A stretch of DNA of 38,287 bases, from positions 1 to 38,287 of the forward strand of contig JADLEX010000107.1 in NCBI GenBank assembly GCA_020845895.1, given 5' to 3'. Shown here one piece after another: positions 27,752-31,886 of the stretch (positions are counted from its first letter, which is position 1; the number at the start of each line of letters is the position of its first letter). The translations under genes were made by a program, and so were the position numbers. The notes beneath the pieces were generated by a model. That model saw only the letters and a list, made by a program, of their open reading frames with translations, made no database searches and was not told the origin of the DNA. This DNA is from Deltaproteobacteria bacterium (GTDB lineage Bacteria > Lernaellota > Lernaellaia > JACKCT01).

Positions 27752-29221
27752 ATGTTCCATATCGACCTCTCGCAGTACCGACTGGCCTTTCTCGCGCCCG
27801 AGCTCGTTTTGTGCGGCTTCGCGTTCCTGCTGCTGCTGCTCGGAGCGTTTTCGCGCGCCGAAAGCAATCGCCACAGCGCCGGGTGGATCGCGGTGACGGG
27901 CTTCGTCGTGGCCGTGGCGCTTTCCTTCGTGTATCGCCACGCGGCGACCGAGACGCTGTTCGGCGCGATTCGCGTCGACGGATTTTCGACCTTCTTCAAG
28001 ATCGTGATCTTTACCGGCGCGGCGATCTCGTCGCTGCTGTCGATGGACTATCTGCGCCGTCGCGACATTCAGGAGTGCGAGTTCTTCGCGCTGCTCGTTT
28101 TCGCCGCCGTCGGCATGTCGCTGCTCGCGGCGTCGGCCGATCTCATCGCCGTGCTCGTGTGCATCGAGATCATGTCGCTCGCGGTTTACGTGCTGGTCGG
28201 CATTCGCCCCGGCGACGAATTCGGCACCGAGGCGGCGCTCAAGTATTTCACGCTCGGCGCGTTCGCGTCGGGCATTCTCGTCTTCGGCATCGCGCTCGTG
28301 TACGGCACGGCCGGCACGGTTCACTTGGCCGCGATCGCCCGGGCCGCCGCCGCCGGGGCGATTGCCGAACCGACGCTTTTCAAGGTCGGTCTCGCGATGC
28401 TGCTGACGGGTTTTGCGTTCAAGGTCGCGGCCGTGCCGTTCCACATGTGGGCGCCGGACGTCTATCAGGGCGCACCCGCTCCGGTGACCGGATTCATGGC
28501 AATGGGCGTCAAAGCGGCGGCGTTCGCCGCGGCGATTCGCGTGTTTCAGGTTGCGTTCGGTGGCCAGTTCGACGACTGGCGACCGATCGTGTGGACGCTC
28601 GCGCTCGTCACGATGGTGCTCGGAAATTTCCTGGCGCTCATGCAGGATCACGTCAAACGGCTGCTCGCGTATTCGTCGATCGCCCACGCGGGCTACGTGC
28701 TGGTCGGCCTCGCGGGCAAAAGCGAGGCGCTCACGCCCGCCATGATGTTCTATCTGGGTTCGTACGCGTTCATGACGCTCGGCACCTTCGCGGTGCTCTC
28801 GGCGATCAGCGACGGCGACGGCGAACGCGACGCGCTCACCGAGTGGCGCGGCCTCGGGCGGCGGCGACCGGTGCTCGGCGCGATGATGGCGATGTTCCTG
28901 TTCTCCCTCGCGGGCATTCCGCCCTTCGCGGGATTCTTCGCGAAATTCTACCTGTTCTACGCGGCGGTCGAGGCGGGCGACACCGCGCTGGTGCTCGTGG
29001 CCGTGACGGCGAGCTTCGTGAGCCTCTACTACTACCTCAAGGTCATCGTGGTCATGTACATGAGCGAGGCCGAAGCGACCGAACCCGCGACCGAGTCCGA
29101 ACTCGGCTTCGGCACGCGCGCGGCGCTCGCGCTCTCGGCGCTCGGCGTGCTCGGGCTCGGCCTGCTGCCCTCGCGCGTGCTCGAATGGGCCGCGTCCGCC
29201 GCGCCCAGCCTCTTCCGCTGA
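27752..29221 (+). CDS. nuoN: NADH-quinone oxidoreductase subunit N
   Basis: The proximal antiporter-like pump, last gene of the operon. 489 residues with about 14 helices. Seen: CIEIMSLAVYVLVGIRPGDE with the conserved glutamate, KVAAVPFHMWAPDVYQGAPAP with the lysine, and RLLAYSSIAHAGYVLVGLAG. Its stop codon (29219-29221) lies inside the left copy of the 69-bp direct repeat. The last eight bases of the gene are therefore duplicated 1.7 kb downstream, after the AbiE module. Confidence 0.95.
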   Translation: MFHIDLSQYRLAFLAPELVLCGFAFLLLLLGAFSRAESNRHSAGWIAVTGFVVAVALSFVYRHAATETLFGAIRVDGFSTFFKIVIFTGAAISSLLSMDYLRRRDIQECEFFALLVFAAVGMSLLAASADLIAVLVCIEIMSLAVYVLVGIRPGDEFGTEAALKYFTLGAFASGILVFGIALVYGTAGTVHLAAIARAAAAGAIAEPTLFKVGLAMLLTGFAFKVAAVPFHMWAPDVYQGAPAPVTGFMAMGVKAAAFAAAIRVFQVAFGGQFDDWRPIVWTLALVTMVLGNFLALMQDHVKRLLAYSSIAHAGYVLVGLAGKSEALTPAMMFYLGSYAFMTLGTFAVLSAISDGDGERDALTEWRGLGRRRPVLGAMMAMFLFSLAGIPPFAGFFAKFYLFYAAVEAGDTALVLVAVTASFVSLYYYLKVIVVMYMSEAEATEPATESELGFGTRAALALSALGVLGLGLLPSRVLEWAASAAPSLFR

Positions 29222-29282
29222 TCTAATCCGGAATCTCGGGAGCGACGACGTCCGCGATCGCCCGGGCGATCGCGGCGTGGCC
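29214..29282. repeat. 69-bp direct repeat, left copy, flanking the AbiE module
   Basis: Matches 30918-30986 at 66 of 69 positions (differences at 29231, 29242 and 29265). It spans the last eight bases of nuoN and the duplicated 3' end of the SGNH gene found intact at 30927. Inside it, 29252-29275 is a perfect 24-bp palindrome centred on CCCGGG. That palindrome could act as a terminator-like hairpin or as the recombination site. Confidence 0.9.
29223..29282 (-). pseudogene. detached 3' fragment of an SGNH hydrolase gene
   Basis: On the minus strand these 60 bases read as 19 codons plus TAG, beginning GHAAIARAIADVV, nearly identical to residues 301-319 of the complete SGNH protein at 30927-31886. 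Two of three differences change the protein (Val to Ala, Ser to Pro) and one is silent. No upstream coding sequence is attached, so it is a remnant produced by the insertion. Confidence 0.8.
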
Positions 29283-29301
29283 GGTGAGGACCTCCGACCG
29301 T

Positions 29302-29349
29302 ATGATGATAATGTTCTCACATATTGACAAATGATGACAATATCATCAT
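29302..29349. promoter_or_regulatory. AT-rich inverted repeat upstream of abiEi, candidate operator
   Basis: ATGATGATA at 29302-29310 is the exact reverse complement of TATCATCAT at 29341-29349. Between them lie a TTGACA at 29324 and two direct TGACAA copies ten bases apart. The segment is far AT-richer than its surroundings. AbiEi antitoxins repress their own promoter by binding inverted repeats, so this is the expected site. A matching -10 is not clear. Confidence 0.5.
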
Positions 29350-29361
29350 CGTCCTTTCGAG

Positions 29362-29973
29362 ATGAAGGCCGCCGACAACCGATTTGACCGTGCGGAGACG
29401 GCTTTTCGCCGCGCGGGCGGAATCATGAAATATTCCGACGCCGTCCGTCTGCGCATTCACCCGGAAACGCTCGCCGGTTTATTGGCGGAAGGTCGGATCG
29501 AGCGATTGGCCCGCGGCGTCTACCGCCTCACCGACCTTCCTCCGCCGCGCATGCCGGATCTGGCCGTTGTCGCGGCACGTGTTCCCGGCGGCGTGATCTG
29601 TCTGATTTCGGCGTTGTCGTTTCACGGCCTGACCACGCAGATTCCCGGCGCGGTGCATCTGGCTGTTTTACGCGGATCGCGAATCCCGCGCCTCGACCAC
29701 CCGCCGATTCGGGTGTTCCGTTTCAGCGCGTCCGCGTTCGGAATCGGTGTGGTACAGCATGCCATCGACGGAGTGAACGTGCGGATTTTCGACGCGGAGA
29801 AGACGCTGGTGGACTGCTTCAAGTTTCGCAACGCAATTGGACTCGATGTCGCGCTCGAGGCCCTGAAGCTATACCGCGAACGAAAAAAACCGCGCGTGAA
29901 GAAACTCCTCGAATACGCGCGCACGTGCCGCATGGAGCGCGTCATGACGCCGTATCTGGATGCCGTGTTATGA
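29362..29973 (+). CDS. abiEi: AbiEi-family antitoxin
   Basis: 203 residues. The N-terminal 60 residues fit the winged helix-turn-helix of AbiEi: GIMKYSDAVRLRIHPETLAGLL, then the wing RIERLARGVYRL. The rest is the family's antitoxin domain, with VICLISALSFHGLTTQIP and FDAEKTLVDCFKFRN, both recognisable signatures. AbiEi neutralises the AbiEii nucleotidyltransferase indirectly and autorepresses the operon. The ATG at 29362 includes the preceding helix seen in this subfamily; ATG 29425 would start at MKYSD and is the alternative. It overlaps abiEii by four bases (ATGA). Composition is slightly less GC-rich than the nuo genes. Confidence 0.9.
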   Translation: MKAADNRFDRAETAFRRAGGIMKYSDAVRLRIHPETLAGLLAEGRIERLARGVYRLTDLPPPRMPDLAVVAARVPGGVICLISALSFHGLTTQIPGAVHLAVLRGSRIPRLDHPPIRVFRFSASAFGIGVVQHAIDGVNVRIFDAEKTLVDCFKFRNAIGLDVALEALKLYRERKKPRVKKLLEYARTCRMERVMTPYLDAVL

Positions 29974-30905
29974 CGAAACACGCCGTGACCGATCTGGCCG
30001 CTTCGGTTCATCAGCGGCTGCGCAATCTCGCGGCGCGCACTGATCGCCCCTTCGACGAACTGTTCCAGCGATACGCGATGGAGCGTTTTCTCCACCGCCT
30101 GTCCCGATCGCCGCATGCCGGCCGTTTTGTTCTCAAGGGCGCGCTGATGCTGGCCGTATGGGACGCGCCGATGTCGCGACCGACGATGGATATCGATCTG
30201 CTCGGCCGGATGCGTAACGACGTCGACTCGGTGTTGGACGTGGTCCGGGATGTGTGCGTGATGATGGTGGAACCCGACGGAATGGCGTTCGACCCGAATT
30301 CGGTTCGCGGGGTGGTCATCAAGGAAGATGCCGAATACAGCGGGGTTCGAGCGACTGCGCGCGGGAATCTCGGCGTATCCCGTGTCCAGATCCAGATCGA
30401 CGTGGGTTTCGGCGATGTGATCGTCCCCTGCGAATCGGAAATCGTTTTTCCCACGCTCCTCGACATGCCCGCGCCGATTCTCCAGGGATACAGTCGCGAA
30501 AGCGTCGTGGCGGAAAAATTCGAGGCCGCCGTCAAACTCGACCTGCGCAATACGCGAATGCGAGATATCTACGACCTTGGGTTCCTTTCTCGGCAATTTC
30601 CGTTCGACGCGGTGTCGCTCTCGCATGCGATCCGTGCCACCTTCGCGAATCGCGGAACGGATCTTGAGGCGAACCCGACGATCTTCGCCGGGGCGTTTGC
30701 CGACAACCCGGCGAAGGCGGCGCTGTGGCGAGCCTTTACCGCGCGCATGAGAATTCCCCGCGATCCGGGCGGATTGGCTGGCGTCATCGACGCCGTCGCG
30801 ACGTTTCTCCGTCCGATCATGGCATCCCTTGTCGAAGCGCGGGCGTTCGAAGCCGATTGGCCGCCGGGCGGGCCATGGCGGGAGCGCAAACCCGCCGCGA
30901 AGTGA
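29970..30905 (+). CDS. abiEii: AbiEii-family nucleotidyltransferase toxin
   Basis: 311 residues, starting at ATG 29970 overlapping abiEi. AbiEii/MenT-type toxins transfer nucleotides onto RNA targets such as tRNA and stop growth, originally recognised as abortive infection against phage. Seen: FVLKGALML, then RPTMDIDLLG with the metal-binding Asp74 and Asp76, then EKFEAAVKLDLRNTRMRDIYDLGFL, the second active-site motif. In place of the usual KGG-T of the first motif there is KGAL, which occurs in one branch of the family. The gene appears intact. It ends 12 bases before the right direct repeat. Confidence 0.9.
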   Translation: MTKHAVTDLAASVHQRLRNLAARTDRPFDELFQRYAMERFLHRLSRSPHAGRFVLKGALMLAVWDAPMSRPTMDIDLLGRMRNDVDSVLDVVRDVCVMMVEPDGMAFDPNSVRGVVIKEDAEYSGVRATARGNLGVSRVQIQIDVGFGDVIVPCESEIVFPTLLDMPAPILQGYSRESVVAEKFEAAVKLDLRNTRMRDIYDLGFLSRQFPFDAVSLSHAIRATFANRGTDLEANPTIFAGAFADNPAKAALWRAFTARMRIPRDPGGLAGVIDAVATFLRPIMASLVEARAFEADWPPGGPWRERKPAAK

Positions 30906-30917
30906 CGCAGGGTCCCG

Positions 30918-30986
30918 TCCGCTGATCTAATCCGAAATCTCGGGAACGACGACGTCCGCGATCGCCCGCGCGATCGCGGCGTGGCC
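30918..30986. repeat. 69-bp direct repeat, right copy, flanking the AbiE module
   Basis: Partner of 29214-29282 at a constant offset of 1,704 bases, 66 of 69 identical. It includes the stop codon and last 19 codons of the intact SGNH gene on the minus strand, plus eight bases (TCCGCTGA) equal to the end of nuoN. The internal palindrome is imperfect here: two ten-base arms around CCGC. It still forms a strong hairpin just inside the end of the gene. Confidence 0.9.
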
Positions 30987-31886
30987 CGCGGGCGTGGGAT
31001 GCACGTTGTCTGGACTCGCGAAGATCACCGTCTCGCCGCGCGCCGCCGCGGCGCTCATTTCGGGGAACACGTCGATCGCCGGGTCGTGGCGGCGGTGCGT
31101 CTCGATGCGCAGCGAGCCGTCAGACTCCTCCAGATACGGCGGGGCGATAAAGTGGATTTTCGCGCCGATACGCGTGGTGAGCGCCGCCATGGCGTCGAGG
31201 TTGGCGTGGTGGTCATCGATCGCGACGCGCTCCAGCGGTTCTCCCGGCGCGGTGGTTCGCCGCGCACGCACGAGCCCGCCCCGCAGCCATGCGTAAAGGC
31301 GGCTTTTCGCGAGCGCGCCGCGCATTGGGCCGAGCGCGGGCGCGTCCACGGGGCGCTGGTCCTTGTCGGCGAATCCGACCGCGTCGAACCCGTCGTTGAT
31401 GCCGAAATAGGCGATCACGAGATCGGGCCGGTACGCCGCCGCCTTCGATTCCAGCAGACGCAGTCCCTGAAAGCTCGAATACCCGGGGCAGCCGAAGTTG
31501 AGCACGCGGATGTCGCGCCCGGGCTTTGCCTCGCGCAGGAGTTGTTCGAGTCGCGCGCTGTAGGTTTCGTCGTAACGCAGCCCCGGCGTGCCAAGGCCAA
31601 ACGTGCACGAATCTCCGAGGGTGACGATGCGAAATTGCCCGGCGGGTTTTTCGCGTGGGGCGTCGGGTCCGCGAAAGCCCGATGCGTTCACCTCCCACGA
31701 CGGGTTATTTTCACGCAGCCGCCAGAACAGATGGTCGTCGGGCACGAACCCCGACTGCTCGCGGTGCGGGTTCGTGAAACGCATGAATGTCGCCTGTTCG
31801 CCGCCGCTCCCCGCAAGACGCGCAACCGTCTCGGCGAGCGCGAACACGATGAGCACGGCGATGACGGCGAACGCGGCCTTTTTCAT
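30927..31886 (-). CDS. exported SGNH/GDSL-type hydrolase
   Basis: 319 residues with an N-terminal hydrophobic signal or anchor (KKAAFAVIAVLIVFALAETV), so it acts outside the cytoplasm. All four SGNH blocks are present: GDSCTFGLG with nucleophile Ser93, NFGCPGYSSFQG, GINDGFD, and DNVHPTPAGH with Asp293 and His296. These enzymes deacylate or transacylate lipids or glycans. It is convergent to nuoN and abiE, and its last 19 codons are duplicated at 29223-29282. The block II wording GYSSFQG is close to GYSSHQG in the SGNH protein at 12285, suggesting related substrates. No ribosome site precedes the ATG, and a possible promoter abuts it. Confidence 0.87.
   Translation of the reverse strand: MKKAAFAVIAVLIVFALAETVARLAGSGGEQATFMRFTNPHREQSGFVPDDHLFWRLRENNPSWEVNASGFRGPDAPREKPAGQFRIVTLGDSCTFGLGTPGLRYDETYSARLEQLLREAKPGRDIRVLNFGCPGYSSFQGLRLLESKAAAYRPDLVIAYFGINDGFDAVGFADKDQRPVDAPALGPMRGALAKSRLYAWLRGGLVRARRTTAPGEPLERVAIDDHHANLDAMAALTTRIGAKIHFIAPPYLEESDGSLRIETHRRHDPAIDVFPEMSAAAARGETVIFASPDNVHPTPAGHAAIARAIADVVVPEISD

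Follow-up and report, generated by a model that had tools for sequence, protein, structure and literature searches.

Integrative elements that enter genes at their 3′ ends duplicate the gene end and thereby restore it. Restriction–modification (R-M) systems, according to the pertinent passages of PMC3874152 (which cites Nobusato 2000 and Furuta 2010), insert with long and variable target duplications of ~100 bp. The corresponding section of PMC3031569 likewise reports long variable target duplications for R-M systems, and suggests that post-segregational killing could help other toxin–antitoxin (TA) systems to spread. A ParE/ParD-like TA pair of Microcystis, in the part of PMC7935541 devoted to it, is fenced by identical 152-bp direct repeats, the upstream one 147 bp away and the downstream one 120 bp away, and transposed genes of Arabidopsis with flanking repeats are treated in a portion of PMC2869330, whose authors favour excised circles derived from tandem repeats. 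Of interest is how solitary chromosomal TA operons spread without a transposon or a phage. Here, an AbiE operon (abiEi–abiEii) is analysed that lies between nuoN and an SGNH/GDSL hydrolase gene of a Deltaproteobacteria bacterium (assembly GCA_020845895.1), on the 38,287-nt contig JADLEX010000107.1, which is referred to in full as the window. The operon is bracketed by a long direct repeat of host sequence.

A repeat search over 3.3 kb around the locus revealed a 69-nt direct repeat (29214-29282 and 30918-30986) with 66/69 identical positions and a start-to-start distance of 1704; the second-longest direct repeat in that interval has 23 nt and 74% identity. The repeat is composed of eight nuoN bases including the stop codon, one spacer base, and the stop codon and final 19 codons of the convergent SGNH gene, in agreement with the open reading frame (ORF) ends at 29221 and 30927. 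The initial annotation of the window had described this repeat and its make-up, and had assigned the right copy to the complete SGNH gene and the left one to an orphan fragment; all of this was reproduced. Read on the minus strand, the left copy gives GHAAIARAIADVVAPEIPD and the right copy GHAAIARAIADVVVPEISD, with two amino-acid changes and one silent difference, which fall one at each codon position. The 1635-bp segment between the repeats consists of a 79-bp AT-rich leader, abiEi, abiEii and 12 bp, and no recombinase or transposase gene is found in it, abiEi and abiEii being its only genes, as also stated by that annotation. A search of the whole 4.98-Mb genome found no third full copy of the repeat, only the two in the window, and a 32-bp partial match elsewhere spans a palindrome of the repeat alone. 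The module does look inserted, as had been claimed, and the favoured account, which is probable though not strongly so, is that a bare AbiE operon from foreign DNA entered the nuoN–SGNH junction and duplicated 69 bp of its target.

What the initial annotation overlooked is recurrence: unexpectedly, the scar is present around two unrelated TA families, AbiE and HigB. Left and right operon flanks were compared, and a repeat was counted when its ungapped score reached at least 25 (match +1, mismatch -2); it was called unique when it had two copies within the locus and was not of low complexity. With one uniform script, long flanking repeats were found at 11 of 43 usable AbiE loci, seven of them unique, and at 8 of 39 HigB/Gp49 toxin loci from the same genome set, where again seven were unique. 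Among control genes, an acetyltransferase family (GNAT, PF13420) had one repeat in 30 loci and no unique one, SGNH genes had none in 24, and arbitrary positions in 80 nuo loci reached the threshold in 2 of 419 cases. Unique repeats are thus enriched around TA operons both against non-TA genes (14/82 vs 0/54, P = 8e-4) and against arbitrary positions (P = 3e-10), and for AbiE without the window the comparison with non-TA genes still holds (6/42 vs 0/54, P = 0.006). An earlier control at other places in AbiE loci gave 14 positions in 268, all of them in two repetitive loci (L156 and L185; loci and genomes carry our own numbers). The repeats of the different AbiE and HigB loci have no sequence relationship to one another, and their lengths lie between 28 and ~200 bp. 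A mechanism specific to AbiE was ruled out because HigB operons show the same rate of repeats.

The AbiE sample derives from 47 matches in 386 genomes, which gave 44 loci, the window and 43 further ones; the matches left out were those of G050, on a short contig, and of G053 and G111, inside loci already counted. A first scan placed 11 of the 44 over the threshold, the window included, and one of the 44 was lost to the uniform script for short flanks. HigB loci were taken best-scoring first, some near contig ends being left out, up to 40, of which 39 were usable; for the SGNH control, loci L007-L035 (29 in all) contributed 24, the other five being omitted for short flanks. AbiE operons of mobile replicons were also surveyed: 0 of 10 on plasmids and 2 of 45 on IMG/VR viral contigs had a repeat over the threshold, and only one of the latter (L256) is genuine, which makes one genuine repeat in 55. 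The other, at L208 (score 1000), is a script artefact, as the module start falls off the contig. The viral loci, 51 in number, came from an alignment-based scan, an earlier scan having given none. One of the AbiE operons seen on plasmids, L202 on the conjugative Bradyrhizobium plasmid p195_2, has a DCL-family gene on one side and a group of SbcCD exonuclease/AAA ATPase genes on the other.

The anatomy of the scar is alike from locus to locus. At ten mapped loci, the window included, the host gene is complete and its end is repeated on the other side of the TA operon. Among the AbiE cases, L158 has a complete 377-residue gene and, 11 bp past the toxin gene, a 194-bp copy of its 3′ end including the stop codon. 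At L175, the copied 3′ end measures 52 bp, and the last 13 bp of the toxin gene, stop codon included, already belong to the right repeat, so that the final codons of the toxin are host sequence. The convergent gene of L176 retains its end and has an 83% identical orphan across the operon, while L186 and L188 carry copied 5′ ends. Copied 3′ ends occur at the HigB loci L288 (78/78), L299 (129 bp), L292 (48 bp) and L272 (146 bp), the last from a wider, gapped comparison outside the 8/39 count. At L288, a sequence at ~2930-2955, located between HigB and the right repeat, resembles a tRNA 3′ end, but ARAGORN finds no tRNA there. The repeat of L268 may itself be a dispersed one, as a portion of it is also present in L273, beyond the limits of the unit.

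Comparisons between units at different sites point to what moves. The AbiE units of L180 and L183 share 91% identity in a stretch that begins 97 bp ahead of the operon and ends 4 bp beyond it, where similarity stops. The HigB units of L288 and G396 are 88% identical over 760 bp, and each has its own exact repeat (78/78 and 100/100) of a different host gene, the second G396 copy sitting at a contig end. In three congeneric genomes, similarity around HigB is confined to 700-844 bp. Because similarity stops at the operon edges, the mobile entity would be the bare TA operon. A single genome (G035) carries two HigB-type units at separate sites (L280 and L286), which match each other at 87% over 700 bp.

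In the window, the operon as such is ordinary, and the scar around it is the unusual part. Adjacent AbiEi and AbiEii are predicted to form a genuine, complete type IV TA operon: the Pfam matches of both proteins exceed the family cut-offs, the genes overlap by 4 bp, and the conserved AbiEii columns are present, invariant positions in an alignment of 12 sequences (A1) including R-T-D-D and A-E-K, which we take to be the nucleotidyltransferase motifs of the family. The G+C content at third codon positions (GC3) of the abiE genes is 0.72-0.74 vs 0.82-0.90 in their neighbours, which is consistent with a foreign origin. Rfam and tRNA searches of the window gave no matches. The features of the locus are listed in the table. 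The octamer GCGATCGC, which makes up the palindrome of the left repeat, occurs 856 times in the 4.98-Mb genome, where its reversed control occurs 3 times and ~166 occurrences are expected from a G+C content of 0.63; it is HIP1-like.

Table. Features at the nuoN–SGNH junction of the window (coordinates on the forward strand).
Feature	Position	Strand	Remarks
nuoN	27752..29221	+	ORF; stop at 29221; final 8 bases including stop open the left repeat (start 29214)
Left repeat copy	29214..29282		66/69; orphan SGNH 3′ fragment past 29221; minus strand GHAAIARAIADVVAPEIPD*
Perfect 24-bp palindrome in left repeat	29252..29275		two GCGATCGC octamers
Leader/promoter of abiE operon	29283..29361	+	79 bp, G+C 0.42
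Inverted repeat in leader	29302-29319/29332-29349		candidate AbiEi operator
abiEi, antitoxin/regulator, 203 aa	29362..29973	+	PADLOC PDLC02265 1.4e-70; Pfam AbiEi_4 PF13338 4e-07
abiEii, predicted nucleotidyltransferase toxin, 311 aa	29970..30905	+	PDLC02312 1.4e-90; PF08843 9.8e-41
Spacer from abiEii stop to right repeat	30906..30917		12 bp
Right repeat copy	30918..30986		contains SGNH stop and last 19 codons
SGNH/GDSL hydrolase gene	30927..31886	-	complete, convergent with nuoN; PF13472 2e-16

Insertion of the AbiE operon would have duplicated the 69-bp target and so left both nuoN and the SGNH gene whole. A staggered break, a template switch and allele import were all considered for the duplication, and we infer its route; most likely, the operon would have been captured illegitimately at a staggered break, or a template switch would have returned upstream of its point of departure. 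Of the two origins proposed by the initial annotation, a cassette moved in trans and capture by recombination, the latter is the better one. Once formed, the repeat-flanked insertion would probably be retained, because recombination between the repeats would remove antitoxin and toxin genes together and be lethal to the cell, as judged from general TA biology. More broadly, it is proposed, tentatively and with more doubt than for the window itself, that bare chromosomal TA operons of unrelated families (AbiE, HigB) are mobile by recombinase-free insertion that duplicates ~30-200 bp of target, that the survivors are those in which a host gene end was left whole, and that addiction guards the unstable repeat-flanked state against deletion.

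The strongest competitor is one-sided homologous import, in which a sister strain already had SGNH-abiE at this place and a crossover in the gene end on one side, with an illegitimate join or a circle on the other, left both the donor and the recipient end behind. It is considered rather unlikely for the window, although several of the observations that weigh against insertion with target duplication speak for it. At L158, the left tail WGRLFLSY resembles WGRLFLEY of the AbiE-bearing G040, and the right orphan WGQLFQQY resembles WGQLFQKY of G386; both have AbiE, or what remains of it, at this same site, and tails that resemble different relatives point to allele import over simple target duplication. 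Moreover, AbiE occurs at the L158 site in these two related genera without a second repeat. The differences between copies, when pooled, favour third codon positions (43/73; P = 0.007 vs a 44% neutral-orphan expectation, which is our own estimate), and this excess also fits partly diverged alleles. Import is not needed for L288 and G396, where exact repeats and homology limited to the unit at different sites require no donor allele, and the three differences in the window are without coding bias, although by themselves they do not discriminate between duplication and import. Several of the counted cases are weak, L196 for its AT-richness, L176 for its paralogous neighbours, and L170, L180 and L186 for copy numbers above two. 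As an observation apart, the AbiE of that one site in three genera of a single family is intact in L158 (G185), has a broken toxin gene in L194 (G040) and consists of the antitoxin only in L265 (G386), which amounts to a natural series of AbiE decay.

Integration in trans, by a tyrosine or serine recombinase encoded elsewhere that recognises the repeat and possibly its 24-bp palindrome, has the classical integrase footprint in its favour, that is, entry at a gene 3′ end with the gene restored, as well as the perfection of that palindrome within the left repeat. It is nonetheless improbable. The genome holds just two copies of the repeat, the palindrome is a doubled octamer with 856 occurrences in the genome, the repeats of other TA loci are unrelated and span 28-200 bp, and the L175 junction falls inside the last codons of the toxin. 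Since a site-specific enzyme would be expected to use one constant end and one constant target, the cassette moved in trans by a site-specific recombinase, as the initial annotation had it, finds no support; variable repeat length, unrelated targets, ragged junctions and the absence of a recombinase from the unit argue against such an enzyme and fit long target duplication. The same final layout would be reached from an operon that had been in place beforehand, if gene end and operon were duplicated in tandem and one of the two operons was then lost. Tandem duplications are frequent in bacteria, but no remnant of a second operon is seen beside the right copy, and this history is the least probable of all. 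An assembly or strain-mixture artefact, with a contig fusing strains with and without the module, could be suspected from the 171 contigs of the genome, from the fragmentation of many comparison genomes and from the one comparison repeat at a contig end. It is hardly more credible, because a join by exact overlap would not yield imperfect repeats with three differences, nuoN and the SGNH gene are both intact, and the Microcystis locus with its identical 152-bp repeats is, in the part of PMC7935541 concerned, present in more than one strain.

The remaining points against insertion with target duplication concern empty sites and generality. For the window, no single-copy empty site was seen, its relatives being too distant for a search at the DNA level: the class was represented by six other genomes, two of them (G001 and G002) from the same family, with nuoN 34% and 56% identical, respectively, and neither has an SGNH gene beside nuoN, both carrying it elsewhere. 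A nuoN scan of named genomes returned distant relatives only (37-50% identity). As an empty-site test, these relatives are uninformative, given nuoN identities of 34-56% and the SGNH gene located elsewhere. For L176, no ortholog that could give a same-genus empty site was found in G190 (best match 37%), and among 18 genomes related to G143, the same-genus G388 has a VOC-like match that lacks the TA unit and, at 73%, has diverged too far for the junction to be interpreted. In E. coli K-12, none of eight TA loci has flanking repeats, and ccd at folA-apaH replaces the spacer without target duplication, for which reason it was discarded as a model empty-site case. At folA-apaH, 4843 of 5375 matching genomes contain a place that spans 80% or more of the K-12 interval; some strains carry other content there, by which the match is broken in two. 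It may be that only recent insertions bear the scar, or that it is confined to certain lineages. With a target-duplication scar at a sizeable fraction of TA operons, insertions could be dated, recent ones and empty sites located, and the stabilisation of repeat-flanked DNA by addiction examined directly in the laboratory.

Compared with known systems, the window stands closest to the R-M insertions. As in the accounts of these in the passages cited above, a bare addiction module without a transposase lies in a long variable duplication of ~100 bp, and mobility is deduced from genome comparison. Host-sequence repeats of tens to ~200 bp tightly flank a unit devoid of transposase and recombinase, but the window carries the type IV TA operon AbiE in place of the R-M content of the published cases. 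Because AbiE replaces the R-M system, the window is a variant and not a member of the published set; by analogy, its scar can be regarded as an AbiE example of insertion with long target duplication. Among published TA cases, the Microcystis ParE/ParD-like pair comes nearest, as far as the relevant part of PMC7935541 goes: it is a two-gene TA system tightly bracketed by long direct repeats, but it is of type II, and its repeat, which begins 14 bp beyond the adjacent gene and includes a 16-bp inverted repeat, is not described there as a gene end. The Arabidopsis genes, as presented in the cited portion of PMC2869330, are likewise moved non-transposon genes between direct repeats of a mostly genic target, in a plant and with the circle model favoured. 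Integrative elements share the duplicated and restored gene 3′ end, whereas the window unit has 1.6 kb and no integrase, and the repeats, being unrelated among the cases, provide no common attachment sequence or shared core of the kind found in cis-mobilizable (CIME) or integrative and mobilizable (IME) elements. Among the matches listed in the full-text literature, no account of AbiE flanked by such repeats was found. Long target duplication is already known for R-M systems, and the unexpected finding is that a scar of this kind recurs around two unrelated TA families.

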